From positions 1 through 34,489 of IMG/VR virus record IMGVR_UViG_3300020578_003969: 34,489 bases of DNA; one strand, given 5' to 3'. The stretch comes from a virus. Under the pieces are notes generated by a model, which worked only from the letters and a program-made list of their open reading frames with translations, ran no database searches and was not told the origin of the DNA. Below, piece after piece: positions 11,802 to 28,916 of this stretch; the stretch's first letter is position 1; each line of letters starts with the position of its first letter. A program made the translations under genes and the position numbers.

Positions 11802-13979
11802 ATGAAGCTGCTCTCCCTGAAGGGCAGGAACATCGGTCTTCTCAAAGGAGATTTTGAGTTTGAGTTTGACGACGCACTGACGGTCATCACCGGCCCAATC
11901 GGCTGCGGCAAGTCAACCATTCTCACGATGATCCGAGCCTCGCTGACCAACTCGTTTCCAGGGAACGCAGGTAGCTGGGCCTCCTGGGGTACACCCCCCC
12001 AGGAGGCCTGCTATTTTATTGCGTCCTGGCGTATAGGAAACAAAGTTTTACATATCGCCAAGGCAGTTGCTGGCGAAAAGAAGTTTGGTGCGCTGAACAT
12101 TCCACGATTGCGCATCGAACACGACGACGGAAAAGTCGAAGAGGTGTTCACATCCAAGGAGGCTCTAGAGAAAACCCATTCCCTAATTCCCGTTCCGGCC
12201 AGCATTATCGACGGGCATCTAATCGTAGATCAAGATTCCATCACAGCACCTGTATCTTCAACGCCGGCAAAGTTCAAGGAAATTATTCATACTTTGACTC
12301 GCACCAATGAGCTAGAAGCTCTGCGAGGCCAAGTCAGAGATGTGATGATGTCCGTAACTGTGCCTGACGTAGAAGGGCCCTTGCTGGAGGCTAGGACTGA
12401 GTACAACCTGCTGAGTGGCGAGGTAGCCAGGATAGAGTCTGATCTTCAAAAGCTGGTCTTGGAATACACAGGTCTGCAGCTAAAAGAAGTTGGCACGCGC
12501 TTGGATACTCTTGAGCACATCAAGAAAAATGATGAAAAGCGCACACAGCTGGAGTCCAATAGAACTACTGCTGTAAATGCTCATGTTCAACTACTGCAGC
12601 AACAAAAGGTTCAAGAGTCTGGTTTGGCGGAACTAGAGCAGCAGAAGGCAGCAAAAGCAATTAATGCAGAGGCGGCTAAAAAGTCTTTGTATTCTGCAGA
12701 TATATTGCTGGAGAATAACAAGCGTAAAGCCAAGCTGCTGGAAACTGCAGAAAAGCTTACGACTAGATTGCAGGAGTGTCTGCAAACTCAGCCTCAGGCA
12801 CCTAGCGAGGAAAGACCACAAGCAGGTTCTGACACTTGGCTTGTGGACCGCGGTTCGGAGCTTAAACAAGAGCTAGCTGCGGCTATAAAGCGAATGCAGT
12901 TGGCAGAAAAGGGTCAGTGTCCGGAGTGCGGTACGGTTACAGCCGTATGCAGTCATGACATGGATCAGCTTAAGTCTGATATTGCCAGCAAGTCTGCGGA
13001 AGTAGATCTCACCACTCAGACTCTACGGGAAGTGCGTAGGTTGGAGCGAGAGTGGCAAGACTACGAAAAGGCTCTTAATGAGTCTACTCAATGTGCTGAG
13101 ACCACAATGGTCAAAGCTGCGGAAATAGATCAGGAGCTGCAAGGGCTTCAAGACTTGCCAGTAATGACACCGGAGATAAAGGCCGGATTTGCTCGTACGG
13201 TAAGTGAGTACGATCTATTGGAGCGCAGTATCAACACTGCAACTAACAGCATCAGCGCAGTCAAGGGGCATATCCAGTCTCAACTGGACATGATTACTTT
13301 GATAGACAATCAGCTAGCCGACATACCGCCTGCTCGATACGATGCGCATGAGTATGTTCGATTGCAGAAAGTGCATCAAGATGGCATGCTGTTAAAGCAA
13401 AAAGCGGATAAGCTGGAGGGCAGTCTAGAGACGGCCATTCAGAGTGTAGAGCGGGCAAAGTCCAAGGTTGACGTTCATGAAAAACGAGCAGCCTCGGTAA
13501 AGCCTATTGAGAATTTCCGTAAAGTCTTGGATAAGGTCAACGGTATTCTGATGAAGGACGGTCTACCAAGACTGCTGTCCTTGCAGTACATGCAGAAACT
13601 CAATGACCGTCTTGGGTTCTATCTTCGTACGATTAATGCAGACTTCTCTGCCTACATTGACGAGAACCTGGAGTTCATGGCGCGAAAGTCTGACGGCTTG
13701 GTACATGCTGCCAAGAGACTTTCTGGCGGTCAGAAGCAGCAGGCCAGCGTCTGCTACCTACTGGCCGTGAATGACGTGTTTGCCAGCACTCTCGGAGTCC
13801 TTGCTCTTGACGAGCCCTCAGGGGCCATGCAGGAGTCTAACTCACGAGATCTTGCAGAAGCGTTCAACTATCTGGCGAAGATGGGACAGCAAACCGGTCG
13901 TCAGTTTATCGTAATTACCCACAGCAACGCCCTTGCGGCCCTAGGCTGCAAGAATATCTCTCTTGAAGGTCACGAGTAA
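11802..13979 (+). CDS. SbcC/Rad50-like ATPase (725 aa)
   Basis: An SMC-type ATPase of the SbcCD/Mre11-Rad50 (T4 gp46/gp47) class, for processing DNA ends and branched DNA. Walker A is GPIGCGKST (31-39). A long heptad-rich coiled coil (about 180-600) is broken by a zinc-hook-like CPEC at about 373-376. Then come the ABC signature LSGGQ (about 641), Walker B with LALDEPSGA (about 665-675) and the H-loop ITHSN. It is shorter than bacterial SbcC, as in phages. The ATG follows the HTH gene by 8 bases with no strong Shine-Dalgarno (TAAACAC precedes it). The stop overlaps the next ATG (TAATG). A strong intragenic hairpin lies at codons 59-69. Confidence 0.92.
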   Translation: MKLLSLKGRNIGLLKGDFEFEFDDALTVITGPIGCGKSTILTMIRASLTNSFPGNAGSWASWGTPPQEACYFIASWRIGNKVLHIAKAVAGEKKFGALNIPRLRIEHDDGKVEEVFTSKEALEKTHSLIPVPASIIDGHLIVDQDSITAPVSSTPAKFKEIIHTLTRTNELEALRGQVRDVMMSVTVPDVEGPLLEARTEYNLLSGEVARIESDLQKLVLEYTGLQLKEVGTRLDTLEHIKKNDEKRTQLESNRTTAVNAHVQLLQQQKVQESGLAELEQQKAAKAINAEAAKKSLYSADILLENNKRKAKLLETAEKLTTRLQECLQTQPQAPSEERPQAGSDTWLVDRGSELKQELAAAIKRMQLAEKGQCPECGTVTAVCSHDMDQLKSDIASKSAEVDLTTQTLREVRRLEREWQDYEKALNESTQCAETTMVKAAEIDQELQGLQDLPVMTPEIKAGFARTVSEYDLLERSINTATNSISAVKGHIQSQLDMITLIDNQLADIPPARYDAHEYVRLQKVHQDGMLLKQKADKLEGSLETAIQSVERAKSKVDVHEKRAASVKPIENFRKVLDKVNGILMKDGLPRLLSLQYMQKLNDRLGFYLRTINADFSAYIDENLEFMARKSDGLVHAAKRLSGGQKQQASVCYLLAVNDVFASTLGVLALDEPSGAMQESNSRDLAEAFNYLAKMGQQTGRQFIVITHSNALAALGCKNISLEGHE
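11978..12008 (+). other. Intragenic 12-bp perfect hairpin in the sbcC-like gene
   Basis: GGCCTCCTGGGG (11978-11989) and CCCCAGGAGGCC (11997-12008) are perfect complements with a 7-base loop. The right arm holds a full AGGAGG ribosome-binding core. The position is codons 59-69, shortly after the Walker A codons. Confidence 0.9.
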
Positions 13980-14284
13980 TGTCCATTATTGACTCTAGTG
14001 TTGTTCATGCTTCTATCAGCCCCGACATGGTCGAGGCCGTCCGTCTGATCACGAAGGTCGATTTCTACAGCACTCAGTGCATTCCCGGATGTCAGGCGAA
14101 GACCCTGGCTCGCAAGCTTCGCAACTTTGTTCTTGTTCGTCAGCAGCCCGAGTACACCAAGTTCATGCAGTATTATGGACTTGAGTCCCTCGCCAACAGC
14201 AGCGATGAGATAGTGAGCTTTGCCGATATTCTCACTAATGCCGAAACCGAAGGTTGCGGTGTTGTCATCTCGGTCTCGGCTTAA
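13979..14284 (+). CDS. Small hypothetical protein (101 aa)
   Basis: A compact soluble protein with no known motif; three cysteines, two of them in a CIPGC pair (about 34-38). Codon use is strongly biased to C/G-ending codons, like the gene at 22080, suggesting high expression. It is coupled to the sbcC-like gene (TAATG) and lies 23 bases before the helicase gene, whose ATG is preceded by CAGGAG. A role with the recombination proteins is likely from position only. Confidence 0.75.
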   Translation: MSIIDSSVVHASISPDMVEAVRLITKVDFYSTQCIPGCQAKTLARKLRNFVLVRQQPEYTKFMQYYGLESLANSSDEIVSFADILTNAETEGCGVVISVSA

Positions 14285-14307
14285 GCGTATTTAAACAGGA
14301 GTTTGGC

Positions 14308-15747
14308 ATGAGCCAAAAAATAGTTCTGCAACGCATCATGCGGTTCATCAGAACCCCAGAAGGTCCGCATAACGAGATTCTTCAGAAAGAGTTTCAATAC
14401 CTTCATAGGAGTCAGGAACGAGTGCCGGGCCGAGCTCCCAGGTATGTCAGTACGCCTGTAGAGCTATTTGCAATGCAGGACAACTGGATGTATTTTCCCT
14501 GCGGGCTGCAGGAAAGGTGCCTACAGGTTCTTGCCAAGGCAGGCTACAAGCCGGAGCTCTCCGACCTGCGGCCAAAGAAACTCCCTGTTCCGGACGCCTC
14601 TAAGCTGGCTGGGCTTCGGCCCGGCCAGCTGGAGGTGATCCAGGAGATCGCCAAGGCAGACTTTGGCATAGTGGATGCTCTTACCGGATTTGGTAAAGGC
14701 GTGGTGATAGAGAAGGTTATTCAACTCTATCCCAAGCAAAAGCATGCAGTGATTACCAAGTCCAAGAGTGTTTGCAATCAGCTGTACGAACGCCTTAAGA
14801 AGGTATTCCCAAAGGCAGGCTGTTGGAATTCCAGTAAGCATGTCGAGGGTAATCCCATGGTCTGCACCTGCGGTTCTCTAGGAGGTCTTACCTTAGAGGA
14901 CTTTGACGTAGTGCAGCTTGACGAAGTTCACGAGCTCTTGATCCCCACATTCCTGGAGTACTACCCGGGATTCAGCGGATGCAAGTTGATCTCGTATTCA
15001 GCCTCTCCTGACCAGCGCATGGATAATTCCGCATTGGCCATGGAAGCGTACTTTGGCAACAAGATCTGCAAGATCGACTATCAGGACGGCGTAGATCTTG
15101 GTCTGGTAGTTCCCATCGAAGTGTGGAAAGTGGACTGGGGTTGCACCCCGGTGGATGTAATTCGCAGCTTCAAGTCTGACGTAAAGCGCGCCAGACTAGG
15201 ATACTGGGGCAACCTTGCTCGTAACAATGCTATTGCTAGGGTGGTTTATGAAGAAGTACCCAAGCGTCTCTCAGAGAAAGATCCGCAGATACTCATCCTT
15301 GTTGACAAAATTGAACACGCGCTGGAACTACACAAGTACCTGCCAGACTTCAAATGTGTCTACGGTGAGATGGACGATGCCACTGCAAAGGCATTTCAGC
15401 AAGCCAAGTTGCTTGAAGGCGATCCGGTTTCTCGCAAAGACGTCGAGAACATACGTAAGCAATTCTCGGCAGGAACCCTGAAGCGAGCGATCGCAACGGG
15501 AATTTGGAGCACGGGTGTTGACTTCCCTCAACTCTCGGTCATCATACGTGCAGACGGCGGCGCTTCCCCGATCAAGGATATTCAGATGCCTGGTCGTGTT
15601 TGTCGCATCGCTGACGGCAAGTCAAAGGGTATTCTGGTTGACTTTGCCGACAACTACGACGTATGGGCTGCACGAAGATCTAAGACTCGATTTGAGAGCT
15701 ATGAGGAAAAACAGTGGGAAATTCTTCCAGTGAATCTCAATCACTGA
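14308..15747 (+). CDS. UvsW-like superfamily 2 helicase (479 aa)
   Basis: A DExH-type helicase likely to remodel branched DNA (fork regression, R-loops), as T4 UvsW does. Motif I is TGFGKG (126-131; the last position is Gly instead of Thr/Ser), motif II DEVH (205-208), motif III SYSAS, and motif VI QMPGRVCR (about 426-433). The start at 14308 has CAGGAG at ideal spacing; the frame is open back to 14254 but that would overlap the previous gene. The C-terminal end overlaps the next gene by 34 bases. The region before residue 100 is probably a DNA-binding N-terminal domain. A hairpin with a UUCG loop lies at codons 99-108. Confidence 0.9.
   Translation: MSQKIVLQRIMRFIRTPEGPHNEILQKEFQYLHRSQERVPGRAPRYVSTPVELFAMQDNWMYFPCGLQERCLQVLAKAGYKPELSDLRPKKLPVPDASKLAGLRPGQLEVIQEIAKADFGIVDALTGFGKGVVIEKVIQLYPKQKHAVITKSKSVCNQLYERLKKVFPKAGCWNSSKHVEGNPMVCTCGSLGGLTLEDFDVVQLDEVHELLIPTFLEYYPGFSGCKLISYSASPDQRMDNSALAMEAYFGNKICKIDYQDGVDLGLVVPIEVWKVDWGCTPVDVIRSFKSDVKRARLGYWGNLARNNAIARVVYEEVPKRLSEKDPQILILVDKIEHALELHKYLPDFKCVYGEMDDATAKAFQQAKLLEGDPVSRKDVENIRKQFSAGTLKRAIATGIWSTGVDFPQLSVIIRADGGASPIKDIQMPGRVCRIADGKSKGILVDFADNYDVWAARRSKTRFESYEEKQWEILPVNLNH
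14603..14630 (+). other. Intragenic 12-bp hairpin with UUCG loop in the SF2 helicase gene
   Basis: AGCTGGCTGGGC (14603-14614) pairs with GCCCGGCCAGCT (14619-14630) with one wobble around a TTCG loop closed by C-G, the extra-stable cUUCGg type in RNA. GGAGGTG follows immediately. Confidence 0.9.
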
Positions 15748-16283
15748 GTTATCGCCTACGGGAACTGTACGCAATAAACAAAATGGCTGTTACCGGATCG
15801 AAGCGTGATTATCACGCGGCGATGAACAGCACTAACCCAGCTTTGAAGGCCCGATGGGATTCGATTGCTACTTGGTGTCAAGCCGAGAGCATCGATCCCC
15901 GGGCCTACATTGAGTGGTGTTTCATGCGTGAGTTTCCCGGATATCCAATGCCTTCAAAATTTGACTCTCCTTTGTTCAAGAGCGAATACATAAAGGCAGG
16001 TAAACCGGATCCAGAGTATTCAAAGCTTCAGTTGAAATACGAGCTCATGGTGAAGAGGCTCGAGAAACTGACGCAAGAAGCCGGTTTAATTGAATGCTTA
16101 TTGGATCCTTTAAATACTTTTGATCCTGTCTTCATCTATACAATTGCCAGAAAGATGGAACGCCATGATGAGCTGCCATCAGATATACTACTTCGCGCAC
16201 AGCACCAAGTGCAGTGCCAACCTGTATATGCTGATAAGTTCAAGGGCATCGTTCCAGAGGAGCTGTTCATTCCATGGACTTAA
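15714..16283 (+). CDS. Hypothetical protein between the helicase genes (189 aa)
   Basis: Not recognised. It is a helical, charged protein with several Trp/Tyr-containing segments and a helix around 95-125. I use a GTG start at 15714 because GAGGA lies 8 bases upstream; an ATG at 15783 lacks any Shine-Dalgarno. It overlaps the SF2 helicase by 34 bases and the DnaB-like helicase by 10. Its place just before a replicative helicase fits a helicase loader (as T4 gp59 or lambda P), but I see no AAA+ motif and no sequence match, so this is a guess. Confidence 0.7.
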   Translation: MGNSSSESQSLSYRLRELYAINKMAVTGSKRDYHAAMNSTNPALKARWDSIATWCQAESIDPRAYIEWCFMREFPGYPMPSKFDSPLFKSEYIKAGKPDPEYSKLQLKYELMVKRLEKLTQEAGLIECLLDPLNTFDPVFIYTIARKMERHDELPSDILLRAQHQVQCQPVYADKFKGIVPEELFIPWT

Positions 16284-17743
16284 GTCACGCAAACAATAAG
16301 TGGCTTGTCCTGGGCATGCTCAGGTCAAGCGAAGTAATGGGCATGATTGTCCAGAGACTCAAGCTTGAAGACTTTCGGGATAACGAGACCCCTCTGAGGG
16401 TTGCTTTTATTATCGGTAGTCGCTGGTATGCTACTAGCAAGACCCCCGTTCCCTACGAGGTTGCGGTAAGCGCGTTTATAGACGAGCTTGTCCCTAACCG
16501 CGTATTGAACGAGGCAGAGGCTCTGCAGTTTGGAGAGATTTTGCAATGGGCCTACAGCTCTATAAACACATTTGAAGAGCATAAGACTTATGTCTTGGAG
16601 TTCCTGCATACGTTTCTAATTGATCGCAAGGTTCGCCCTGCGGCATTTGGATTGGATAGAGCCGAGAACATTGTAGATAAGGTGCAGGAGCTCAATCGTA
16701 CGATTGCTAGCACCTCTATCAGTAAGGCTAATTTCATCGATCCGTTCATGAGCAGTACTCCAATGCTGTCCAATGCGGTTCGTAGGCCTTGGGGTGTTGA
16801 CTGGGTGGACATCGTGACTTCCGGCGGTGCAACGACCGGCGAGACCACTTTGTTCCTAGCTCCGTCTGGTGGTGGCAAGACTCTGACTAATATTCAGATT
16901 GCCACTACAGCTGCCCTCTGCGGCGAAGATTCCTTGATTCTGACCTACGAGCAGAATGCAGAGGGCATTACGAATCGTATTTATGCATTTGCTCTAGGCA
17001 TTCCTATCACTAGGTTTGCGGGTTTGAGCAAGGAGGGATTTCATGCAGACAAGGGCCTCAAGGCAAAGTACGATCAAGTGCGAGAGCGCTTGGCCGGCAG
17101 GCTAATGATCGTGGATATGCTCGAAGCCGCACAGAACAGCGGTGGAGGTGGCGGCGGCGCCACAGAGGTGGAGTTGATTGTCAAGCAAGCTAGAGACTCT
17201 GGCAAGAATCCTCGATATGTTGGTATTGACTGGCTCGGGCCAATGGCAAACAACTATATGGCTGTTCGTGGTATGAACACTGCCGAGCAGACAAAGATCA
17301 TGAACCAGATGGCTGACGATCTGCGCAAGGTTGGGAGCAATCTCAAAGTCAACATATTTGTTTACCATCAGCTGGGCACCACGGCTTCGGCCAGTGGCCC
17401 CCAGCGCAAGCCCGAGGCAACAGATGCCTACATGTGCCGTACCTTGCATCACTACATGGACACAGTCATCTGTGTAGGCAACCGAGACAAGGAAAGCAAC
17501 ATGGCTTGGGTAAATGCCCCAAAGGTTCGTAATGGTGCGCCATTCATGGACTCTTTGATTCAAATGGATGGCGCCATGTCTCGCTGGAAGCTAGTCGATA
17601 AGTCGGAAGTAAATACCGAGACAATGAAGCTATACGGCCAAAAGGCGGAATCCAAGCCTGTTGGAGAGGATGACGAGCCTAAGGTTCGCCGTCGCAAGGA
17701 CCCCTTGGCCTTCAATGAAACCGTTAGGGCGTATTTGGGATGA
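16274..17743 (+). CDS. DnaB-like replicative helicase (489 aa)
   Basis: A RecA-fold hexameric 5'-3' helicase. An N-terminal helical domain (about 1-150) precedes Walker A APSGGGKT (196-203), a catalytic Glu in LTYEQN, Walker B RYVGIDWLGPM and a motif with YHQLG. A poly-Gly stretch (GGGGGG, about 292-297) interrupts a loop before Walker B, longer than usual. The C-terminal 50 residues are charged and basic. The ATG at 16274 overlaps the previous stop; AGGAG lies 12 bases upstream, slightly long. Downstream overlap with the primase is ATGA, giving a coupled helicase-primase pair. Confidence 0.9.
   Translation: MDLSHANNKWLVLGMLRSSEVMGMIVQRLKLEDFRDNETPLRVAFIIGSRWYATSKTPVPYEVAVSAFIDELVPNRVLNEAEALQFGEILQWAYSSINTFEEHKTYVLEFLHTFLIDRKVRPAAFGLDRAENIVDKVQELNRTIASTSISKANFIDPFMSSTPMLSNAVRRPWGVDWVDIVTSGGATTGETTLFLAPSGGGKTLTNIQIATTAALCGEDSLILTYEQNAEGITNRIYAFALGIPITRFAGLSKEGFHADKGLKAKYDQVRERLAGRLMIVDMLEAAQNSGGGGGGATEVELIVKQARDSGKNPRYVGIDWLGPMANNYMAVRGMNTAEQTKIMNQMADDLRKVGSNLKVNIFVYHQLGTTASASGPQRKPEATDAYMCRTLHHYMDTVICVGNRDKESNMAWVNAPKVRNGAPFMDSLIQMDGAMSRWKLVDKSEVNTETMKLYGQKAESKPVGEDDEPKVRRRKDPLAFNETVRAYLG
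17371..17405 (+). other. Intragenic 13-bp hairpin with UUCG loop in the dnaB-like gene
   Basis: GCTGGG (17371-17376) pairs with CCCAGC (17400-17405); CCACGGC (17379-17385) pairs with GCC-A-GTGG (17390-17397) with one bulged A. The loop is TTCG closed by C-G. A 2x2 internal loop separates the two stems. Confidence 0.75.
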
Positions 17744-19147: not shown

Positions 19148-19157
19148 AAGGCACATA

Positions 19158-22037
19158 ATGCCAGCAGAAACTATCGACGAAAAAGTTGAAAAGTACGGGG
19201 CTATTGCTGTTCTGCGAGCAGAACAGTATGGGCAGCAGATTGAGTACTCCTTTGAGGAGATGCTTAATAACATTAGTAACGTGACCATTACTGGAGCAAA
19301 CGGTAAGTTCATGCCAGTAAAGATCATTCCTGGCATTCACCTAGACTCCGTATTTGGCCAAGACCCTGTAGTTCCTGGCAAAACAGCTGCAGCAGTTTTA
19401 GGCCCTGCGCATAAGAAAATTATGTTCGTGGGCTGTTGGCCGAACTCCAAGGAAGACGCAAACGCCAGACTCTATGTTGGTGATTGGGTTACGGAGTTTG
19501 AGGATCTAGTGCACAAGACCGGGTTTCCTGTAAGCGATTGCTATTACACTACTTATGTAAAGCAGTATGTGGATGGAAAGAAAACAGCTATTCCAAAAGA
19601 GTTAGTTCAGGAATATGCTGCCATGTTCAAGCGAGAGCTTGAACTGGTCAAGCCCGATCTTGTCATCCTGTTGGGAGCCAAAACTCTCAAGGCCGTACTG
19701 GGTGCTAAGGCCACCGTAGACAAGTACAAGAATCGCACTATGTCTGCTGAGGAAAGCCCGCTTGGAGTCAAGACTGCAATCATGACGGACTTTTCGGCAA
19801 TTATCCACATGCCGGAAGTACGGGCTGGTATCGCCATGGACATGAGCAGGATCGCCAATGAGCTGGCAAGTGGCAAGGTCACCATAGAAGACGACACTCA
19901 CATTGAGTATCAGTATATCTATAGCTCCGAGCAACTGAAGGATTGCCTCAACACAATTGAGCAGGAGTACTCTGGGTGGGTGGCTGTTGACTGTGAGTGG
20001 GGCGGCGGCAACCACCTCTCTGGCTATTTACGGTGCATTCAATTCAGCTGGGCTCCAGGCAAAGCATTGGTTGTCGTGTTTAATCACGTTAATCTGCAGC
20101 CAACTCCGATTGGTCAAAACTCACAAGAAGCGTGGGCTTTGATTAAAAGCTTTATAGAGAATGGTAAGACCAAACTGATCGGCCACTTCATACGTGCCGA
20201 CTTGCCTTGGCTAAAGCACAATGGAATAGACGTCACTGTCTCTGCTCTTACCGGCTGGGATACGGCACTTGCTGGGCACTTGCTTGACGAGAACTGGGCT
20301 CAAGGCCTAGAGGTGTACACGGCACGGCACACTCAAATGGGTCGTTATGAGCTGGAACTGAACAATTGGATCAAGACCAATAAGTACGACGTGGATGAGT
20401 TTGGCTATGGAGGTGTTCCTGACGAAGTGTTATTCCCGTATGCCGCCAAGGACGCAGATGCCACATTCCGCATATTTTTAATTCAGTACGCGGAGATGAT
20501 GCGACCGGAAAATGAGAAGGTCAAAGAGCTTTTCCAGAATGTAGTAATGCCAGCTACACTGCCTATCCTAGAGATAGAAATGACTGGCATGAATGTGGAT
20601 AGGGAGCGCCTAGAACTGTTGTCCCACAAGTACACAGCTAAGCGCACCGAGCTGGCAGAGACTCTTAGAACAATGCTATCTTGGCCTGATTTTAATCCTG
20701 ATTCTCCAGTCCAAAAGGCTGCAGCTTTGTTTGGCTGGGTGAAGCAGGGAGCCAAGCCTAGCTTTCCTGACACAGCTACTCTTTGTAAGTTTGAGCCAAT
20801 CAAGGCTACAAACGACAAGAAGTGGGCAGACCTCATCAAGAACCCGGAAAAGATGGCCAGCTATACTCCATCTACCGATAGGTCTGTGCTGACAGGGTTG
20901 ATATTGCAGCATAAGGATAATCCCTTGCTCAATACCATGCTGCTATATACAGCTGTAGCCCAGACTGTGAAAACCTTTACCGGAGAGTTTAGCGACGATC
21001 CGATTACAGGTGGGCACAAGGTGGACGGCGGCATTCTGCCCAAGCTGTGGAGCGACGGCAGAGTGCACACTCGCATTCGACAGACCGTAGAAACTGGCCG
21101 TTATGGACACTCAGATCCCAACATGGCTCAGCTTCCAAAGACTGCCGAAGATCTGGTCAGCAAGGCATTCAAAGACACTAATCAGCAAATCCCATCCATC
21201 CGTTCGTGTTTTCGCGCGGATCCTGGTTGGGTGCTGCTGGATTGTGACTGGGTACAGGCAGAGTTGTTTGTTATGGCCTGGCTATCCGGAGATACCAATA
21301 TGCAACAAAAGCTTGGAGATCCAGGTTCGGACTTCCATTCTGAAGTTGCTATAGAAATGTTCCGCCTGGATCAGCCACCGGCGGACTATGCCAAAGGCAA
21401 GAAAGATTGGCTCAAGGAAAGCGGGAACATAAAGTACAGGACGATTGCGAAAACTATCACGTTCGGAATTGCGTATGGTCGTGGCGGAGCAGCCATCAAA
21501 GAAGCGGTATATACGGAAGGCGTCAACATCACGCTGGACGAAGCTCAGCAATCTGTGGACAAGTTTAAAGAGACTTTTCCTCAGCTTGCACATTGGTTGA
21601 TATCGCAGCAAGAGAAGGTCAGCAGTCAGGGTTATGTCGAGAATGGCTTTGGCCGACGTCGTCGGTTTGAGCACACGGAAGACAATGAACTGCTGGCACA
21701 TCAGAAGCGACAAGCAATGAATGCGCCGATTCAAGGTACTGTTGGCGATCTTATGTCGCTGGCTTTGGTCAACCTATACATGATTCGTGAGGCCGAACGT
21801 CCTCATCTTCAGTATCGGGTTGTCATGAGTGTTCACGACCAGGTAATAGTCACCTGCCCTGCAGAGCAGGTTGACGAGACATTGGAGGTAATGAGAATCG
21901 CGATGTGTGAAAGATGCACTATTCCGGGCAATAATTTGGTGCTTGGCATTGACCCCGAAGTGTGCATTCGTTGGAGCGAACCCTTGACTTCCGAGGACGT
22001 AGCTCAGTATCCTGTTCTAGCCAAGTACAAGAAGTAA
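19158..22037 (+). CDS. Family A DNA polymerase with N-terminal uracil-DNA-glycosylase-like domain (959 aa)
   Basis: The N-terminal domain (about 85-245) has the UDG family 4/5 pattern: FVGCWPNSKED, then YTTYVK, KPDLVILLGAKTLKAVLG and a C-terminal HMPEVRAG in place of HPSxxLR; iron-sulphur cysteines are absent. The 3'-5' exonuclease has VAVDCEWGG (Exo I), GHFIRADLPWL (Exo II) and YAAKDADAT (Exo III). Polymerase motif A is LDCDWVQAEL, motif B RTIAKTITFGIAYG, motif C SVHDQVIV, where Gln replaces the usual Glu of HDE. The same domain order is known in the SPO1 polymerase. The start at 19158 has GAAAGG; the frame is open to 19083 but would overlap the ClpS-like gene. Confidence 0.93.
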   Translation: MPAETIDEKVEKYGAIAVLRAEQYGQQIEYSFEEMLNNISNVTITGANGKFMPVKIIPGIHLDSVFGQDPVVPGKTAAAVLGPAHKKIMFVGCWPNSKEDANARLYVGDWVTEFEDLVHKTGFPVSDCYYTTYVKQYVDGKKTAIPKELVQEYAAMFKRELELVKPDLVILLGAKTLKAVLGAKATVDKYKNRTMSAEESPLGVKTAIMTDFSAIIHMPEVRAGIAMDMSRIANELASGKVTIEDDTHIEYQYIYSSEQLKDCLNTIEQEYSGWVAVDCEWGGGNHLSGYLRCIQFSWAPGKALVVVFNHVNLQPTPIGQNSQEAWALIKSFIENGKTKLIGHFIRADLPWLKHNGIDVTVSALTGWDTALAGHLLDENWAQGLEVYTARHTQMGRYELELNNWIKTNKYDVDEFGYGGVPDEVLFPYAAKDADATFRIFLIQYAEMMRPENEKVKELFQNVVMPATLPILEIEMTGMNVDRERLELLSHKYTAKRTELAETLRTMLSWPDFNPDSPVQKAAALFGWVKQGAKPSFPDTATLCKFEPIKATNDKKWADLIKNPEKMASYTPSTDRSVLTGLILQHKDNPLLNTMLLYTAVAQTVKTFTGEFSDDPITGGHKVDGGILPKLWSDGRVHTRIRQTVETGRYGHSDPNMAQLPKTAEDLVSKAFKDTNQQIPSIRSCFRADPGWVLLDCDWVQAELFVMAWLSGDTNMQQKLGDPGSDFHSEVAIEMFRLDQPPADYAKGKKDWLKESGNIKYRTIAKTITFGIAYGRGGAAIKEAVYTEGVNITLDEAQQSVDKFKETFPQLAHWLISQQEKVSSQGYVENGFGRRRRFEHTEDNELLAHQKRQAMNAPIQGTVGDLMSLALVNLYMIREAERPHLQYRVVMSVHDQVIVTCPAEQVDETLEVMRIAMCERCTIPGNNLVLGIDPEVCIRWSEPLTSEDVAQYPVLAKYKK
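19205..19228 (+). other. Intragenic 10-bp hairpin near the start of the polymerase gene
   Basis: TGCTGTTCTG (19205-19214) pairs with CAGAACAGTA (19219-19228), one wobble pair, loop CGAG. Codons 16-24. Confidence 0.8.
19625..19644 (+). other. Intragenic 8-bp hairpin with GAGA (GNRA) loop in the polymerase gene
   Basis: GTTCAAGC (19625-19632) and GCTTGAAC (19637-19644) are perfect complements around GAGA. Confidence 0.65.
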
Positions 22038-22079
22038 CGTTTAATCTCTTTTTACAAACCCCTAAGGAAAAACACACAA

Positions 22080-23492
22080 ATGGCTTTTGACTTCAACAAG
22101 GCTGTTCACACGAACAGCAAGGTAGACTCGGGTAATCGCAGTTCGGATTACCAGAAGATGTTCAACGACGATGCTCCCAGCCTGGGCTACCTGTCCAGCA
22201 AGGCTCCGTGCGAGTTCATCCTCGTTCCTCCGCATCCAACCTACGGTGCCAGCACGGCAATGACTTCTGGCGGTTTCCGTCAGGATCAACTGCGCGGGGT
22301 TGTTCCCACCCTCGGTCAGTACGGCATTGACTGGGTGATGGTCTACCGCAAGATCGGCAACGATCCAGATCCCCGTAAGCGCAAGGACATCCTGGCCATC
22401 AACATGGTCGAGGGCCCTGACGGTATGGCTGTTCAGGCCGAGCGTGACTGGGGCAACGGTTACAAGAGCCCGATGTACAAGCTTCGCGAGTACCTCTGGA
22501 AGGCTGGCGGCGGTCACAAGTACGACAAGACTCAGCGTCGTTCCATGCCGACCATCAATGTCGATACCAGCACCACGAAGTATCGCCGTGCTCTTGAGCT
22601 CGTTCCTGTCGATGGCAACGACCTCAACGCTCCGCTTGGTCGTGCCGTTCGCACCATGTTTCTGCAGGGTTTTGTCGCCAGTAACGCCGGTATCAACTAC
22701 CTGCAGGACGAGGATGGTCAGCCTTGCTGGCCTCGCCACAAGATTCTGATGATCAATCAGGTGTCTGCAATCAAGAGCCGTGAGGATGCTCGCATCAAGG
22801 AGGGCTTCTACGACGCTTGGTTTGAGCGTGTAGATGGCATGCCCATGGATCCTGAAGGGATCGTGGACACCTTCGGAGACATCTCCGAAAGTACAGAATC
22901 TCTGATGGCGTGGGAAGCCGGCTTCAAGCACGGCGACTTTGCAACTAATCAGAAGATGGTTACCTTCGGTAGCTATGCTTCTGGCCCAGCAGGTATTGCT
23001 ACTTATTCCTGCTCTGTCCAGAACCTGGTTGATCGCTTTGGTCCGGGCTACGTTCTTCCGGACGAGGTTCTAAAGAAGGTTCGTCCATTCAGCGACTATA
23101 TCCTGGAGAACAACGAGAAGCTGCAGATTCAGTGGCTCCTTGAGTTGTTCCCAGGTGATGAGTGGGCCATGATCGAAGCCGGCATCATTCCGGACGGTAG
23201 CAATCGTGCGGCAATGGGTGGTTTCTCCGCCCCTGCTGCACTGTCTGCTCCTGCTCCGGTGATTCCAACTCCGGTCGTCCAAGCTCCTGTTGTGCGAGTC
23301 CCTGTGCCGGTTGCTGCTCCCATGGTTAAGCCTGTTGCAACTCCGCCAATGCCTCGCCCCGTGGCTCCGATTGCGGCTCCTGCCACACCGGTTGCTCCGG
23401 CAACCCCTGCTCCCGCAGCGGGCAACAGTCTGTCTTCTCAGATGCAAGCAATGATGGCCAAGCTTCAAAACAATATGAATAAGCAAGGCTGA
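22080..23492 (+). CDS. Probable single-stranded DNA-binding protein (470 aa)
   Basis: Function is inferred. The protein lies between polymerase and recombinase and is a large globular domain (about 1-375) rich in aromatic and basic residues. A low-complexity Ala/Pro/Val linker (about 378-447) and a short Met/Gln helix follow. Phage ssDNA-binding proteins often have such a layout, although the acidic C-terminal tip typical of them is missing. Codons are strongly biased to C/G-ending and common codons, as for a highly expressed gene, which fits an abundant ssDNA-binding protein. AAGGA lies 11 bases before the ATG. A recombination mediator is the main alternative. A 289-codon antisense ORF here is a by-product of this codon bias. 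Confidence 0.6.
   Translation: MAFDFNKAVHTNSKVDSGNRSSDYQKMFNDDAPSLGYLSSKAPCEFILVPPHPTYGASTAMTSGGFRQDQLRGVVPTLGQYGIDWVMVYRKIGNDPDPRKRKDILAINMVEGPDGMAVQAERDWGNGYKSPMYKLREYLWKAGGGHKYDKTQRRSMPTINVDTSTTKYRRALELVPVDGNDLNAPLGRAVRTMFLQGFVASNAGINYLQDEDGQPCWPRHKILMINQVSAIKSREDARIKEGFYDAWFERVDGMPMDPEGIVDTFGDISESTESLMAWEAGFKHGDFATNQKMVTFGSYASGPAGIATYSCSVQNLVDRFGPGYVLPDEVLKKVRPFSDYILENNEKLQIQWLLELFPGDEWAMIEAGIIPDGSNRAAMGGFSAPAALSAPAPVIPTPVVQAPVVRVPVPVAAPMVKPVATPPMPRPVAPIAAPATPVAPATPAPAAGNSLSSQMQAMMAKLQNNMNKQG
22101..22118 (+). other. Intragenic 7-bp hairpin at codons 8-13
   Basis: GCTGTTC (22101-22107) and GAACAGC (22112-22118), loop ACAC. It resembles the arms of the hairpin at 19205 (CTGTTC core). Confidence 0.6.
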
Positions 23493-23508
23493 AAGTAGGT
23501 AAAACACT

Positions 23509-24756
23509 ATGGCAAAAAAGAAGAAAGACGAATCAGGTGACGCAAGTCAAGATCCCGCACTCGTCGGTATCAAGGCACTCATGGCTCATGCCATGAAGGC
23601 CAGCACCGGCCAGGTCTGCCTCGCGGCAGACCTGGCCGATAGAGTGTGGGGCATTCCTTGTGACCACCTATCCTATCGGTGGCTTTGCGACAATACCTGC
23701 TACCAGATGAGTAGAATCATCGGCGTAGCTGGTATGAAGGAGAGCTGCAAGTCGGCGTTTGCAATGACCCTGGCCAAGGTGTGGATGGACCTAGGCGGTG
23801 CATGCATCTACATCGACACCGAAAACAAGAAGAGTCCTGCTCTGTATCAGGCAGTGGTGGGTAAGAAAAACACTTACCGCACTATTGACCACATCGCTTT
23901 CAACACCGAGGAGTGGCAAGAGCAGATTCTGGGCGCTCTTAAGTTTTCCTCGGAAGACTCTTCTATGGCAGATGTTCCTGTCATGTTCATCATCGACTCG
24001 CTTGGCGGCGTAGACACCAAGGAGAGCGATGCTCGTATTGAAAAGGAGGGTGGAGTCAATCCTCGCAATACGGGCGGCATGATTAAGTGCAAGTCTCACA
24101 ACGAGTTCTTTCGACATGTGAACAAGCACCTGTACATGAAGCCATATGCACTGGTGTACATTAATCACTTGTCTGACGATCCCAATAGCCCAATTCAAGG
24201 TGCGAAGCGCAAGCCTGGTGGCACTGGTCAGGACTATCATGCAGTGTTGGATCTCTGGTTCTCCGTGGTAAAGGGCACTCCAGTCTATAAGGCTACTCGT
24301 GGCTTTACAGAAAAGGTACTTAAGATCACGGTAAACAAGAATTCAATGGGCGCCAGCAAGCGCAACATTGAGATCCCGTATCGTTGGAAGGGCGATGAGG
24401 AGACTGGTCAGATCAGTGAATGTTGGTTTGACTGGGATGCTGCCACCGCAATGCTGCTCACAGATGACAGCCCTACCGGCGTCAAGGGACGCCTAAGAGA
24501 GATCATCAACGTGACGGTCAACAGCAACAAGTACAGCTGCAAGGAGCTGGGCTTGGTGGCGGTTACAGACTCTGAGATGGGTGCGGCTATCCGCAATGCC
24601 GTGGATCTTCGAGAGCGCATCTCGGACGCACTCGGCATTAATCGTATGAAGGTTTATCCAAAGTTGGACGTCAACGATAAGGCCATCTACGAAGAGGTCC
24701 GCTATCCAAAGCTGGTGGCCAACGCTACTACGGATTCTGACGAACAGGAGCAGTGA
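23509..24756 (+). CDS. RecA/UvsX-like recombinase (415 aa)
   Basis: A RecA-fold strand-exchange ATPase for homologous recombination and recombination-dependent replication. GACIYIDTEN (about 97-106) is the RecA strand with the catalytic Glu, and VMFIIDSLGG is Walker B with its following segment. Walker A reads GMKESCKS (75-82): the glycine before Lys is Cys, comparable to UvsX where Phe takes this place. The NKNSMGASKRNIEIPYRW block is like the RecA/UvsX C-terminal core, and the last 90 residues are a phage-specific domain with an acidic tail. The N-terminus is Lys-rich. A 14-bp hairpin lies at codons 33-44. The stop overlaps the next start (TGATG). Confidence 0.88.
   Translation: MAKKKKDESGDASQDPALVGIKALMAHAMKASTGQVCLAADLADRVWGIPCDHLSYRWLCDNTCYQMSRIIGVAGMKESCKSAFAMTLAKVWMDLGGACIYIDTENKKSPALYQAVVGKKNTYRTIDHIAFNTEEWQEQILGALKFSSEDSSMADVPVMFIIDSLGGVDTKESDARIEKEGGVNPRNTGGMIKCKSHNEFFRHVNKHLYMKPYALVYINHLSDDPNSPIQGAKRKPGGTGQDYHAVLDLWFSVVKGTPVYKATRGFTEKVLKITVNKNSMGASKRNIEIPYRWKGDEETGQISECWFDWDAATAMLLTDDSPTGVKGRLREIINVTVNSNKYSCKELGLVAVTDSEMGAAIRNAVDLRERISDALGINRMKVYPKLDVNDKAIYEEVRYPKLVANATTDSDEQEQ
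23607..23638 (+). other. Intragenic 14-bp perfect hairpin in the recA-like gene
   Basis: CGGCCAGGTCTGCC (23607-23620) and GGCAGACCTGGCCG (23625-23638) are perfect complements with a 4-base TCGC loop. It is the longest uninterrupted intragenic stem I found. No T-tract follows. Confidence 0.95.
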
Positions 24757-25274
24757 TGAAGGAAAACGAGAAGCCCAACTTTTTCGATACTTTCGAAGAG
24801 TACAAGCAGAAGCGAGACAACAACCGGCAGGTTGTGTATGAAAACAAAGTCTGCCGAAAGTTGATTACGCGCATGTTTGAAAAGGGCAGCTCGGACCGAG
24901 AATACTGGAGCAAGCGGCTAGAGGCGAGCAGTGAGCCTCTAGCCGAACTTCAGGAGCTGATGGGTCCATTCTGCCTAACAACTCTTAGGATGCAGCAATG
25001 GAGCATCAACGACCTACTCGGCCCTCCGACAAAGATAGCGCAGTTACCTTTGTGGCAGGAGTTCGCCGCAAAGGTTGCACAGTGTAGTCCCAAACAGATT
25101 ACCGCCATGGTGTTTTATAATTCTGTAATTGGCCAGGACATGGTTATACATACAGGGTTAAGTACACAAATGCCTAAAGGCTATTTTCGCTTAATGCGTA
25201 CGTCTACGTCAGGCGACGGCGGAGTAATCATTGACACCTTAGACGGATTTTTGGAGTTGATTGCAGGTAATTAA
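24756..25274 (+). CDS. Hypothetical protein (172 aa)
   Basis: Not recognised. It is soluble, with a charged helical N-terminal half (residues 1-60) and a globular C-terminal half. The ATG at 24756 has CAGGAG at 24745; a GTG three bases earlier is less likely. It is coupled to the recA-like gene (TGATG) and to the next gene (TAATG). A strong hairpin at 24915-24945 is followed by CAGGAG and an in-frame ATG at 24960, which could give a 104-residue short form. A recombination accessory role is possible from position only. Confidence 0.75.
   Translation: MKENEKPNFFDTFEEYKQKRDNNRQVVYENKVCRKLITRMFEKGSSDREYWSKRLEASSEPLAELQELMGPFCLTTLRMQQWSINDLLGPPTKIAQLPLWQEFAAKVAQCSPKQITAMVFYNSVIGQDMVIHTGLSTQMPKGYFRLMRTSTSGDGGVIIDTLDGFLELIAGN
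24915..24945 (+). other. Intragenic 11-bp perfect hairpin followed by an internal start
   Basis: CGGCTAGAGGC (24915-24925) and GCCTCTAGCCG (24935-24945) pair perfectly around a 9-base loop. CAGGAG (24951-24956) and an in-frame ATG (24960) follow within 15 bases. Confidence 0.9.
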
Positions 25275-25642
25275 TGCAATACAAAACCCTATTGGAATAT
25301 GAAACTGTAGAAAAGCTTAGAACAGAACTGACAAGACTGACTCCAGGGCTTTGGATGCTGGACTTGGACAGAGAGTGCACGCAGGTACTGCTTGGACCAT
25401 ACGACACTATCGCAGAGGCTCACGACAGCCGAGACTACATCTGGCACTATGGCGATAGGTTTGGCCGCTATCTATGGCTGGTAAGCCAGACCACAGCTCA
25501 AATAGTCAGAGGCAATGCTGAGAAACTGCAACACATTGAATTGGGTATCGATACACTGCCGTTGGAGGTAACCCTATTCAAGGTGAAGCTAGAGGGAACT
25601 CCAGAATGGATACAGACTCCAACAAGAAGGGTAAAGAAATGA
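25274..25642 (+). CDS. Hypothetical protein (122 aa)
   Basis: Not recognised. It is a soluble mixed alpha/beta protein with a D/E-rich central part (DLDRECTQVLLGPYDTIAEA) and a basic tail (TPTRRVKK). The start is TAATG-coupled to the preceding gene and the stop is ATGA-coupled to the next. No cysteine pair, membrane segment or enzyme motif is visible. Confidence 0.7.
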   Translation: MQYKTLLEYETVEKLRTELTRLTPGLWMLDLDRECTQVLLGPYDTIAEAHDSRDYIWHYGDRFGRYLWLVSQTTAQIVRGNAEKLQHIELGIDTLPLEVTLFKVKLEGTPEWIQTPTRRVKK

Positions 25643-26181
25643 GTGATCCTAAACCAGAGCGAATCCCACTCAGAGACTCTTTGTCATTTACCATACAGGC
25701 TGCCATCACTGATGCAGCAATGTTTAATAATTATATCTTGAAGGAATATGCCCCCAGATGCCAAGGCCCTCTGGGTTTAAGCAAAAGTCCTGCCAAGCAT
25801 ACGTTAGAGAACTGCCTATACGACGAACTTAGCGGCTGGCTAGATGCGCCCACCATTACGGGCATATCTATTCTAAGCATTGAGTTAGGGCCACCAGCGT
25901 TCAAAAATCAGGTCGTGAATGACGATCCCCGAATTAACTTCCGGGAGTTTGTGGATTTAGTGTATGATATCTGCAAACTGGAAGCGTCCGCCAAAAAAAA
26001 TTCAAATTTTGTAATGGTGGACCGGAAAAGGCTGGAGGAGCTAAAGCAGCGCAGTAAGTGGCTGGTTCAGCATGTCGCTAAGGTGGAGTTCGATGAGTCT
26101 AAGTCCGAGAAAACGTCCAGACAAGTGGGTAATAGCCTACGAGAAAGACGGATTTCTAGTGGACTACCTACGTCATCCTGA
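25639..26181 (+). CDS. Hypothetical protein (180 aa)
   Basis: Not recognised. I start at the ATG at 25639, which overlaps the previous stop (ATGA) and has AAGAAGGG upstream; the frame is open to 25606. The middle contains EELKQRSKW, encoded by a 28-base sequence that recurs exactly, in frame, in the DUF5664 gene (see repeats). The last 29 codons overlap the next ORF in another frame, so either the tail or the overlap may be less constrained. Function unknown. Confidence 0.65.
   Translation: MSDPKPERIPLRDSLSFTIQAAITDAAMFNNYILKEYAPRCQGPLGLSKSPAKHTLENCLYDELSGWLDAPTITGISILSIELGPPAFKNQVVNDDPRINFREFVDLVYDICKLEASAKKNSNFVMVDRKRLEELKQRSKWLVQHVAKVEFDESKSEKTSRQVGNSLRERRISSGLPTSS
26035..26062 (+). repeat. 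28-bp direct repeat, copy 1
   Basis: Identical to 26894-26921, starting GAGGAGCTAAAGCAGC. Here it encodes EELKQRSKW inside the gene at 25639. Confidence 0.95.
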
Positions 26182-26308
26182 CTTCATATTCGACAACATA
26201 GAATTAGCCTATGAACGTAAGGGCGATGCTCAAGTTTTATTAAGCAAAGCCTTTGCCCACATAAAGTTGGTTAATGTCTACGTTGTACCTCTACGAGATT
26301 TTTTGTAA
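26093..26308 (+). CDS. Small hypothetical protein (71 aa)
   Basis: The ATG at 26093 has GGTGGAG 4-5 bases upstream. The protein begins with a basic stretch (MSLSPRKRPDKW) and then a compact domain (about 12-71). It overlaps the preceding gene by 89 bases and its stop overlaps the next start (TAATG). No known motif is seen. The long overlap lowers confidence, but coupling at the 3' end supports it. Confidence 0.6.
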   Translation: MSLSPRKRPDKWVIAYEKDGFLVDYLRHPDFIFDNIELAYERKGDAQVLLSKAFAHIKLVNVYVVPLRDFL

Positions 26309-26895
26309 TGGCAAAATATGTAGCTTATATCCCAGGGATGGATTCATTTCTGATGGACGGTAACACCCCTTACATTGATGAAGAGAAAGCAGTAAAAAGA
26401 GTCATAGCGCACGAAACAGTGCACCCTAAAAGCTATGAAGCTAAACCGGTTTCTTTCTTAAAGACTTGGGCTAAGAGACAACAGCAAAAGGAGCAAGAGG
26501 AGAAGACTAAGCCATATAGGTTTTCCCCTACTGCCCCCGAGTTTCACTACAGGTCTCCAGAAGGTCAAGCTCGTTACTTAGTAGTGGTAGGCAATGAGAA
26601 TGAGTCTAAAAGCGGTCTTGCAGTAAAAGCCTTTGACAGCCGAGACGAAGCTGCTATATTTGCCCGCAAGTCAATCTCGGGATTGACTAAGGAACTACCA
26701 GATTTAGGATATTACATACTGGATACTGAAAACCATGTCTACGTCGATGGAATCACAGCCGGAAAGCAGTGGCGAATCGAGGATTACGCCCCTGGGATCA
26801 GCGACAGGAAGAGTGTTTGCGTTCAAGGCGATGGGTCAACCCAGCAGCCCAAACGCAGAGGAAGAAAGCCCCGAGTCACCCCAACAGCCAGCTGA
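26308..26895 (+). CDS. Hypothetical protein with AT-hook-like tail (195 aa)
   Basis: Not recognised as an enzyme. It has a basic, Lys/Gln-rich helix (about 53-67), then a compact domain (about 85-155: ARYLVVVGNENES to LGYYILDTENHVYVDG). The C-terminus PKRRGRKPR resembles an AT-hook (core R-G-R-K-P), so minor-groove DNA binding is likely. It is coupled upstream by TAATG, and its last 65 or more bases overlap the next gene in another frame. Copy 2 of the 28-bp repeat begins at its stop codon. Confidence 0.7.
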   Translation: MAKYVAYIPGMDSFLMDGNTPYIDEEKAVKRVIAHETVHPKSYEAKPVSFLKTWAKRQQQKEQEEKTKPYRFSPTAPEFHYRSPEGQARYLVVVGNENESKSGLAVKAFDSRDEAAIFARKSISGLTKELPDLGYYILDTENHVYVDGITAGKQWRIEDYAPGISDRKSVCVQGDGSTQQPKRRGRKPRVTPTAS

Positions 26896-27295
26896 GGAGC
26901 TAAAGCAGCGCAGTAAGTGGCGGTTTCAGCCGAATGACGAGTACGGATTTAACTTCACCTCGGACAATCGTATGTTTGACTCCGGGGCAAAGCGAGATTC
27001 GGCTTCAGGTAAGCCTAGGCCAGATCTACTATCCCCGTTTGCAACGATTAGAAGGGGCAAAGTCATGGAGCTGGGTGCTCAGAAGTACGGCGTGAGAAAC
27101 TGGGAAAAGGGTATGCCCTTAAGTGTATTTGTAGCCTCTGCGAACAGACACTTCGTACAGTTCCTCATGGGAGCAACTGATGAAGACCATCTGGCGCATT
27201 GTGCTTTTAACTTAGACGCAATCATGCACGGACAGGAGATGATTCGCCGTGGACTTTGGCCAGCCGAATACAATGATCTGCCTCAATATGATTGA
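26831..27295 (+). CDS. dATP/dGTP diphosphohydrolase-like protein (DUF5664, MazG-type fold)
   Basis: The core FDSGAKRDSASGKPRPDLL, ELGAQKYGVRNWEKG and ATDEDHLAHCAFNLDAIMHG match the phage DUF5664 or dATP/dGTP-diphosphohydrolase N-terminal family, whose members (MazZ of Z-genome phages) hydrolyse dNTPs to dNMPs. The metal site is probably the Glu/Asp/His set in the two helices. The start is uncertain: ATG at 26831 (AAGG close by), 26735 (long overlap with the preceding gene), or 26972 (domain start, no Shine-Dalgarno). The N-terminal extension is acidic, Ser/Pro-rich and contains the EELKQRSKW repeat. No PurZ is visible here, so a Z-genome cannot be claimed. Confidence 0.75.
   Translation: MGQPSSPNAEEESPESPQQPAEELKQRSKWRFQPNDEYGFNFTSDNRMFDSGAKRDSASGKPRPDLLSPFATIRRGKVMELGAQKYGVRNWEKGMPLSVFVASANRHFVQFLMGATDEDHLAHCAFNLDAIMHGQEMIRRGLWPAEYNDLPQYD
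26894..26921 (+). repeat. 28-bp direct repeat, copy 2
   Basis: Identical to 26035-26062 and read in the same codon phase (EELKQRSKW), within the N-terminal extension of the diphosphohydrolase-like gene. The copies lie 859 bases apart. Confidence 0.95.
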
Positions 27296-27443
27296 ATGCG
27301 ACATGGAAAAACCCTTTACAGATACATGCTTAGATCACCTAGACTTTCAACTGCACCTTCTACCTATAGTCAATAAAATAGATCGTCAGGATTCCTTTTT
27401 ATCAGAAATTCCTGAAGAGTTGTTTGAATCAAATGAAGAATGA
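27288..27443 (+). CDS. Small acidic hypothetical protein (51 aa)
   Basis: It fills the gap between two clear genes. It overlaps the preceding stop by 8 bases and the ThyX start by 11. The protein (MIECDMEKPFTD at the start, EIPEELFESNEE at the end) is acidic and has no motif. No good Shine-Dalgarno is present; ATGs at 27273 and 27303 are alternatives. It is supported mainly by gene packing. Confidence 0.45.
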   Translation: MIECDMEKPFTDTCLDHLDFQLHLLPIVNKIDRQDSFLSEIPEELFESNEE

Positions 27444-28308
27444 AATCTCTGTAGGCCCTGCAGGTTGGGTGAAGCTGGTAGACACCATGCCTCAGACCGA
27501 CCTAGATCTCGCCGTGGTCCAAGCTGCCCGTACCTCCAATGGTGCGGGCAGCAAGGGCCTAGAGAGCGACACCTCCCTGATTCGCTACTTAATGAGACAT
27601 AAGCACACCTCTCCCTTTGAGATGGTGGAGTTTAAGTTTCATCTAAAGATGCCTATCTTCGTTGCAAGGCAGTGGATGCGGCACAGGATGGCAAGCATCA
27701 ACGAGTATAGCGCTAGATACGCGGCTGTACCCGACGAGTGCGCAATTCCTAGAATTACGGATATTCGCACTCAGTCTCATGTGAATAAACAGGGATCTGA
27801 TCTGCTGGATTTCCCAGGAGACGAGGCGTATCTTTTTGTAGATCAGATGAAGTTGATCTACAAACAGGCTTACTTGGCGTATACGCAAGCTCTTAAAGCC
27901 GGCGTTGCGAGAGAGCAAGCTAGAATGCTGCTACCTCAAAACATGTATACGGAGTTCTACTGGAAGATAGATCTGCACAATCTCTTGAATTTTTTAAAGC
28001 TGAGAATGGACCGCCATGCTCAGAAAGAGATTCAAGATTTTGCAAAGGCGTGCCATGAGCTCATAAGTCCTTTAGTGCCTATTACTATAAAAGCATTTGA
28101 AGATTATGTGCTAAAGGCTGTGACTCTGTCTCACCCTGATACAGTATGCTTGCGTATAATGCTTGAAAGCGAATCTACCCTAGAAGAAATAGGAAAAAAG
28201 CAAGGACTCAGTAAGACTGAAATTGCAGAGCTTGAAACAAAGTTTCGTAAGCTGTGCATCAATCCATACGCAATCAAACCGCAAAATAAGAAAAGAGAAG
28301 ATATCTAA
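27433..28308 (+). CDS. thyX: Flavin-dependent thymidylate synthase ThyX (291 aa)
   Basis: It makes dTMP from dUMP using methylenetetrahydrofolate, FAD and NADPH. The ThyX signature is RHRMASINEYSARY (RHRx7S class, about 80-93); LLPQNMYTEFYWKIDLHNLLNFLKLRMDRHAQKEI carries the conserved Arg, His and Asn pattern near the active site (shown here as separate pieces: MYTEFYWKIDLHNLLNFL and LRMDRHAQKEI). The C-terminal 60 residues are an extra helical extension. The ATG at 27433 is preceded by GAAGAG at a long spacing; a TTG at 27424 would fit the spacing better. A 12-bp hairpin spans codons 31-40. Together with the reductase at 32470 it supplies dTTP. Confidence 0.95.
   Translation: MKNEISVGPAGWVKLVDTMPQTDLDLAVVQAARTSNGAGSKGLESDTSLIRYLMRHKHTSPFEMVEFKFHLKMPIFVARQWMRHRMASINEYSARYAAVPDECAIPRITDIRTQSHVNKQGSDLLDFPGDEAYLFVDQMKLIYKQAYLAYTQALKAGVAREQARMLLPQNMYTEFYWKIDLHNLLNFLKLRMDRHAQKEIQDFAKACHELISPLVPITIKAFEDYVLKAVTLSHPDTVCLRIMLESESTLEEIGKKQGLSKTEIAELETKFRKLCINPYAIKPQNKKREDI
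27523..27552 (+). other. Intragenic 12-bp hairpin in thyX
   Basis: GCTGCCCGTACC (27523-27534) pairs with GGTGCGGGCAGC (27541-27552), one wobble pair, 6-base loop TCCAAT. Confidence 0.9.
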
Positions 28309-28871: not shown

Positions 28872-28883
28872 TTTAAACCTTGA

Positions 28884-28916
28884 GTAGAGCTGCCGAAAGG
28901 CGGCTCTACTTTTTCT
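28884..28916 (+). terminator. Intrinsic terminator of the replication operon
   Basis: GTAGAGCTGCC pairs with GGCGGCTCTAC (11 bp, one wobble) around a GAAA loop, followed at once by TTTTTCT. It is the only classical Rho-independent terminator I see in the window and it separates early-type genes from the tail-fibre gene. Confidence 0.95.

Follow-up and report, generated by a model that had tools for sequence, protein, structure and literature searches.

The nearest documented case to the hairpins described here is the betT gene of Escherichia coli, whose mRNA stability is set by RNase III sites within a hairpin that spans nucleotides 21-95 of the coding sequence (PMC4067347). The bdm and corA mRNAs are cited as RNase III targets in the same paper. 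Hairpins of the CUUCGG type are known from T4 and other phages and, according to PMC8948821, which cites Tuerk et al. 1988, are predominantly intergenic. More generally, PMC6563262 (citing Katz and Burge 2003) and PMC3763529 describe local RNA structure as widespread in bacterial and viral coding regions. In this study, we analyzed a 34,489-base virus fragment from IMG/VR (record IMGVR_UViG_3300020578_003969, here called the window), which belongs to a lineage of uncultured freshwater phages, and we focused on strong hairpins that lie inside five genes of its replication operon: those for an SbcC-like recombination ATPase (sbcC), a UvsW-like DNA helicase (helicase), a UvsX-like recombinase (uvsX) and the thymidylate synthase ThyX, and the gene g24753, which follows uvsX and has no assigned function. 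Repetitive extragenic palindromes (REPs), which are mRNA-stabilising hairpins dispersed as intergenic sequence repeats, provide a further point of comparison.

As in betT, whose hairpin lies a few tens of nucleotides past the start, the phage hairpins are gene-specific and located in coding sequence. However, the phage case involves five genes of one operon, relatives carry unrelated replacements, and cleavage is something that we infer. The hairpins resemble the T4 class in being very stable structures of phage mRNA; the helicase hairpin of the window is also capped by C(UUCG)G, and UUCG loops occur in dnaB of the window and in uvsX of the GC-rich relative G010. Their stems, however, are longer and lie within genes, and the tetraloop varies. 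As C(UUCG)G is present in one of the five window hairpins and is altered at the same site to CUUAGG in the relatives L018 and L017, assignment to this class was rejected. Like the coding-region structures treated in the papers cited above, they are selected structures within genes that were recognized by comparing relatives; whereas the signals described there are broad and weak, here there are five strong, gene-fixed hairpins with replacement. With REPs they share the form of stable imperfect hairpins in polycistronic mRNA, but no sequence is common to the elements, and the g24753 motif is single-copy.

A megablast search of 50,697 phage records returned no near relative of the window. The relatives compared are IMG/VR contigs with identities of 97-99% (L003, L004), about 93% (L005, L009), about 87% (L006, or G002), about 82% (L016 and the 174,569-base L010, or G004), about 68% (L018, or G009, and L013, or G006) and 63% (L017, or G008); for the GC-rich L054/L080 (G010), identity is 52% for sbcC and 67% for uvsX. 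Each element is represented by 8-9 distinct sequences, some of which are close kin. Conservation was judged by codon alignments together with synonymous energy tests in each lineage, and windows were ranked by RNAalifold on the codon alignments with codon columns shuffled within each 90-nt window. This local shuffle was added because a gene-wide shuffle of codon columns overstates z where conservation clusters. Across 22 kb of coding sequence, the five top-ranking windows are the hairpins of g24753, sbcC, uvsX, helicase and thyX. The sbcC and g24753 hairpins are kept in every lineage except G010, and those of helicase, uvsX and thyX are kept in the close clade, the helicase one also in L018. 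The first-pass annotation had treated seven stems as a single family and had named loss of pairing at synonymous positions in relatives as the outcome that would speak against it. For the five, relatives preserve the pairing despite synonymous base changes, whereas the stem at 19205 in the polymerase gene, lost in L006 and L016, drops out, and the dnaB stem at 17371 is marginal, as only four close lineages keep it (z of -3 to -4), the others have lost it, and the local alignment z is -2.5. Elsewhere in dnaB, a weaker structure peak (z -3.5 to -4) recurs at nearly the same position, about +510 to +620 (window 16784-16894), in L005, G009, G006 and G008.

Compensatory changes were assessed by counting paired cells against 500 shuffles and against slid partners. 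The sbcC hairpin, with a consensus fold of -45.9 kcal/mol in the alignment of 9 lineages and a local z of -7.4, has 97.3% of cells paired and 9 double-changed cells, a result equalled in 0 of 500 shuffles (slid controls 0-3). For the helicase hairpin (local z -6.7; antisense -2.8) the corresponding values are 85% and 11 (4 of 500 shuffles; slid 0-4). In the coding region of 9.3-32.5 kb, synonymous constraint is strongest at the g24753 hairpin (z 7.7, the highest value among 6057 windows), which has 97.7% of cells paired and 4 double-changed cells (0 of 500 shuffles; slid versions 0-2). In its most distant stem-keeping lineage, G008/L017, three double changes occur. Among them are E57T and E61T, which lie in opposite arms; pairing is thus preserved even through amino-acid replacements. 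A single double change, in L006, was found for uvsX; for thyX, which has a minimum free energy z of -7.1 against synonymous sequences and a local z of -4.9, the sequences are too few. No match at the Rfam gathering score was found in the window. Under the local shuffle, four of the five hairpins have a stronger energy z as sense than as antisense RNA, the g24753 stem folding equally on both strands. The tally of G.U against A.C in stem-keeping lineages, about 17 to 9, also points to the RNA strand, though it is suggestive only. A separate feature of sbcC is its first 180 nt (11802-11982), 5' of the hairpin, which are under strong synonymous constraint (z 4-6) without themselves forming a strong structure.

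The stems are genuine and far more numerous than chance would give. A direct scan located all seven at the coordinates and with the core lengths first given for them, and the fuller elements of sbcC, helicase and g24753 proved to be longer (Table 1). Comparison with synonymous shuffles had been set beforehand as a test that could refute the claim. In the plus-strand genes between 8578 and 28871, 7 stems reach at least 11 bp with a loop of 3-12 and no more than one G.U, as against a mean of 0.41 (maximum 2 in 100) in synonymous-codon shuffles keeping the protein and codons, and of 0.71 (maximum 3) in synonymous shuffles that preserve base context. Two more stems of similar length had been overlooked, at 25046-25075 in g24753 and at 27835-27864 in thyX (27832-27867); neither is conserved in relatives. 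As claimed, no stem of at least 10 bp occurs in the minus-strand genes, in 3135-5810 or past 28940. Confinement to the operon holds for the recurrent, position-fixed long hairpins, whereas conserved coding structures exist elsewhere too. Per 20 kb of coding sequence, genomes of the lineage have 1.1-4.3 such stems, the window being the highest (synonymous expectation 0.24-0.43), compared with 0-1.8 in five other phage genomes (0.06-0.70), values that come from mechanical open reading frame (ORF) calls and few control shuffles and may include some terminators. Stems of at least 9 bp shared by G004 and distant relatives are, counted genome-wide, no better than a mirror-repeat control; thus, short stems carry no signal, and the evidence comes from long stems together with double changes and replacement in position.

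Where diverged relatives do not have the window hairpin, that gene often carries a different one close by; with the window hairpin included, three different hairpins occur in uvsX, two in thyX and two in helicase. In uvsX, the window clade has GGCCAGGTCTGCC/GGCAGACCTGGCC at +99, G009 and G006 have the unrelated GCCCTCATGGC/GCCATGAGGGC of 11-13 bp at about +61, and G010 has CCCGAGAGCACCGC-UUCG-GCGGTGCTCTCGGG at about +27. The scan for structure peaks in single lineages, which used few control shuffles, also shows a strong peak in G008 at the same place as the G009/G006 hairpin. The helicase hairpin lies at +296 in most lineages. G008 has a shifted 13-bp stem instead, G010 has a stem of 10 bp in the unchanged position, and all that G006 shows is a weaker structure of another form near +90. 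The thyX of G008 has an unrelated 15-bp hairpin at about +73. Three of five unrelated new stems are within 40 nt of the position of the window hairpin (random P 7e-5). Among 414 ORFs with homologs in six lineage genomes, 41 families have at least one stem of at least 10 bp, and only the sbcC, helicase, uvsX, g24753 and thyX families repeat stems across lineages at a fixed 5' position, a list that holds for the homologous part of the compared genomes, whose ORFs were called mechanically. Mostly through these five families, 80% of the stems of at least 12 bp fall in the first 300 nt, against 28% expected. As relatives either keep the hairpin by matched changes or bear an unrelated one nearby, the structure itself appears to be selected. 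We consider it plausible, if slightly short of an even chance, that these five genes need a strong hairpin of any sequence early in their coding sequence, and that such hairpins are lost and replaced much as transcription-factor sites are. While selected RNA structure in coding sequence is of a known kind, its specificity to gene and position and its replacement by unrelated hairpins are unusual.

What might such hairpins do? The first-pass annotation had offered roles in the mRNA as well as structured single-stranded DNA sites, and the former are favored, since the fixed distance from the start, the unrelated replacements and the better sense folding in four of the five all fit the DNA role poorly. 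The stronger sense folding makes an RNA role likelier than a DNA role, without proving it. Each of the five genes would keep a strong RNA hairpin about 30-350 nt past its start codon while sequence and exact pairing drift, and in the mRNA the hairpins would serve as signals in the form of double-stranded RNA. A host enzyme of the RNase III type may cut or bind them; a cut in the polycistronic message would lower only the gene that holds the hairpin and leave its neighbors usable, and in this way cutting might adjust how much of the recombination and nucleotide enzymes is made in the course of infection. Recognition by an RNase III-type enzyme is our tentative preference, held at somewhat less than even confidence and by analogy, because betT is the nearest documented case. 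The double-stranded length within the 5' coding sequence is 10-29 pairs, i.e., at least about one helical turn. Loops differ among lineages in sbcC, helicase and thyX, which argues against loop-sequence-specific binding in these genes; the conserved GAGYAGU loop of g24753 could be an exception to sequence independence. That the hairpins are gene-specific, position-tolerant and largely sequence-independent speaks against a sequence-specific site, a mobile element, a terminator or a protein constraint. Such behavior would be expected if double-stranded RNA were recognized irrespective of its sequence, or if ribosomes were affected mechanically. Several facts weigh against the proposed RNase III-type recognition. 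No phage-encoded RNase III (PF00636) was found in five phage records, so that a host enzyme would have to act; the shortest stems, of 10-14 bp in some lineages, are short for efficient two-strand cleavage; ribosomes passing through would melt the hairpin; and G010 has no sbcC hairpin and only a weak g24753 peak (z -3.1).

That the hairpins instead slow the ribosome early in the gene, for traffic control or for co-translational folding and assembly and without any cleavage, is possible though on the whole unlikely: the early position, the restriction to particular genes and the indifference to hairpin sequence suit it equally well, but genes differ in the distance from the start, which is anywhere between about 30 and 350 nt. 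Moreover, in G002 (L006), at 13400-13800 of G002, thyX is frameshifted near its start and cut to about its first 70 codons, and the hairpin is still there, which is mildly against a purely translational role, although the decay of the gene may be recent. No slippery heptamer was seen 5-9 nt 5' of the stems by eye, without a systematic scan, and the proteins align across the stems in one frame. A barrier to 3'-to-5' mRNA decay, by which the hairpins would stabilise the upstream message as REPs do and would lie in coding sequence as the genes abut, is less probable still. Several hairpins do lie 80-300 nt past the end of genes rich in NNC codons (g11113, g22080, uvsX), but a change of upstream neighbor leaves the hairpin with its gene, as is seen for helicase in G002 and G008, which lack the upstream g13979, and for thyX in G008, where a longer stretch precedes the gene. 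This tracking of its own gene argues against protection of the upstream one. The supposed tie between the hairpins and high codon bias of upstream genes was itself weak on inspection and was set aside.

It is quite improbable that the structures act in single-stranded DNA as sites for the replisome or for recombination. That the carrier genes are replication and recombination genes, and that the g24753 stem folds alike on both strands, would suit such sites; however, for four of the five the sense strand gives the stronger fold, no common sequence exists among the elements, and a fixed position within the gene combined with replacement is hard to explain on that basis. We give hardly any credence to chance, codon bias or amino-acid constraint as the origin of the stems: the similar-length stems at 19205, 25046 and 27835 lack conservation, as chance products might, but synonymous shuffles yield a tenth as many stems, double changes keep the pairs, and unrelated hairpins recur in the same places. 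Two further candidates were rejected. As the first-pass annotation had noted, no T-run follows any stem, unlike the terminator-like hairpin that closes the operon, and the stems are not intrinsic terminators. A mobile palindromic element (REP, Rickettsia palindromic element (RPE) or GC cluster) does not fit alignments that are gap-free, nor a g24753 motif that is single-copy in each genome.

If selection for an early hairpin of any sequence is real, it would give phages a general, sequence-independent way to set the expression of single genes within one long message. Selection on RNA in coding regions is usually known as diffuse statistics; here it can be assigned to a few named sites of a phage replication operon, for which natural replacements exist. 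Since several unrelated hairpins in one place apparently do an equivalent job, the role of coding hairpins becomes directly testable. The finding also serves as a warning that recoding phage genes codon by codon can disrupt their regulation.

Table 1. Hairpins, genes and related features of the window (coordinates of the window unless a relative is named)
Feature	Position	Strand	Remarks
sbcC hairpin	11958..12029	+	29 pairs, 72 nt, codons ~53-76; apical perfect stem 11978-12008
helicase hairpin	14588..14646	+	26 pairs; C(UUCG)G loop in window; core 14603-14630
uvsX hairpin	23607..23638	+	perfect 14 bp, +99 from start; replaced in relatives at +61 or +27
g24753 hairpin	24905..24953	+	17 pairs; core 24915-24945; loop GAGYAGUNN; consensus alignment fold
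thyX hairpin	27516..27559	+	12-bp core 27523-27552 and 5-bp outer stem; +100
dnaB weak candidate	17371..17405	+	interrupted stem, UUCG loop; close clade only
short uvsX stem	23579..23596	+	TCATGGC/GCCATGA, at position of G009/G006 hairpin
helix-turn-helix protein gene	start 11113	+	
sbcC / T4 gp46-like recombination ATPase gene	11802..13979	+	PHROG 77 'SbcC-like subunit', E 9e-27; homologs 99-52% identical
UvsW-like DNA helicase gene	14308..15747	+	Pfam ResIII/Helicase_C, PHROG 16; ORF listed from 14254, ATG at 14308
DnaB-like helicase gene (dnaB)	start 16274	+	
primase gene	start 17740	+	
family A DNA polymerase gene (pol)	start 19158	+	with uracil-DNA glycosylase (UDG) domain
g22080	start 22080	+	no assigned function
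uvsX-like recombinase gene	23509..24756	+	PHROG 97, E 9e-24
g24753	24753..25274	+	codon alignment; throughout lineage
dATP/dGTP pyrophosphohydrolase-like gene	start 26735	+	
thyX thymidylate synthase gene	27424..28308	+	Pfam Thy1, E 1e-53
ThiF-like gene	start 28311	+	
terminator-like hairpin	28883-28910		GAAA loop, then TTTTT; closes operon
inverted repeat of four relatives	G004 69939-69982; G002 6273-6316; G009 91380-91430; G006 21444-21494		AACAGTGGTGTAAGG...CCTTACACCACTGTT

The protein of g24753 has no match in Pfam, PHROG or the phage collection. No thyX was seen in G006 and G009. The ORFs 26072-26308 and 27249-27443 lie in a different frame and overlap the ends of g25606 and g26735, respectively; strong synonymous constraint there (z of about 6 and 5.5) suggests that they are real overlapping genes. 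Such overlaps were considered as a cause of synonymous constraint in general; they fit the signals at 26119-26178 and 27230-27259, while the five hairpins rest on pairing evidence. A near-identical direct repeat, GAGGAGCTAAAGCAGCGCAGTAAGTGGC, is present in two operon genes (26036-26064 and 26894-26922).

Other structures were observed in the relatives. L005 (10001-10500) and L009 (645-1148) have extra DNA between primase and polymerase that includes a second copy of the last 41 primase codons, as after a duplication or a mobile insertion. The inverted repeat listed in Table 1, outside the compared genes, has conserved arms of 17-20 bp spaced 10-11 nt apart and no T-tract. Finally, a nearly perfect 27-bp hairpin with a 6-nt loop lies in G006 (48795-48854), between the homologs of the window genes 6143 and 3135.

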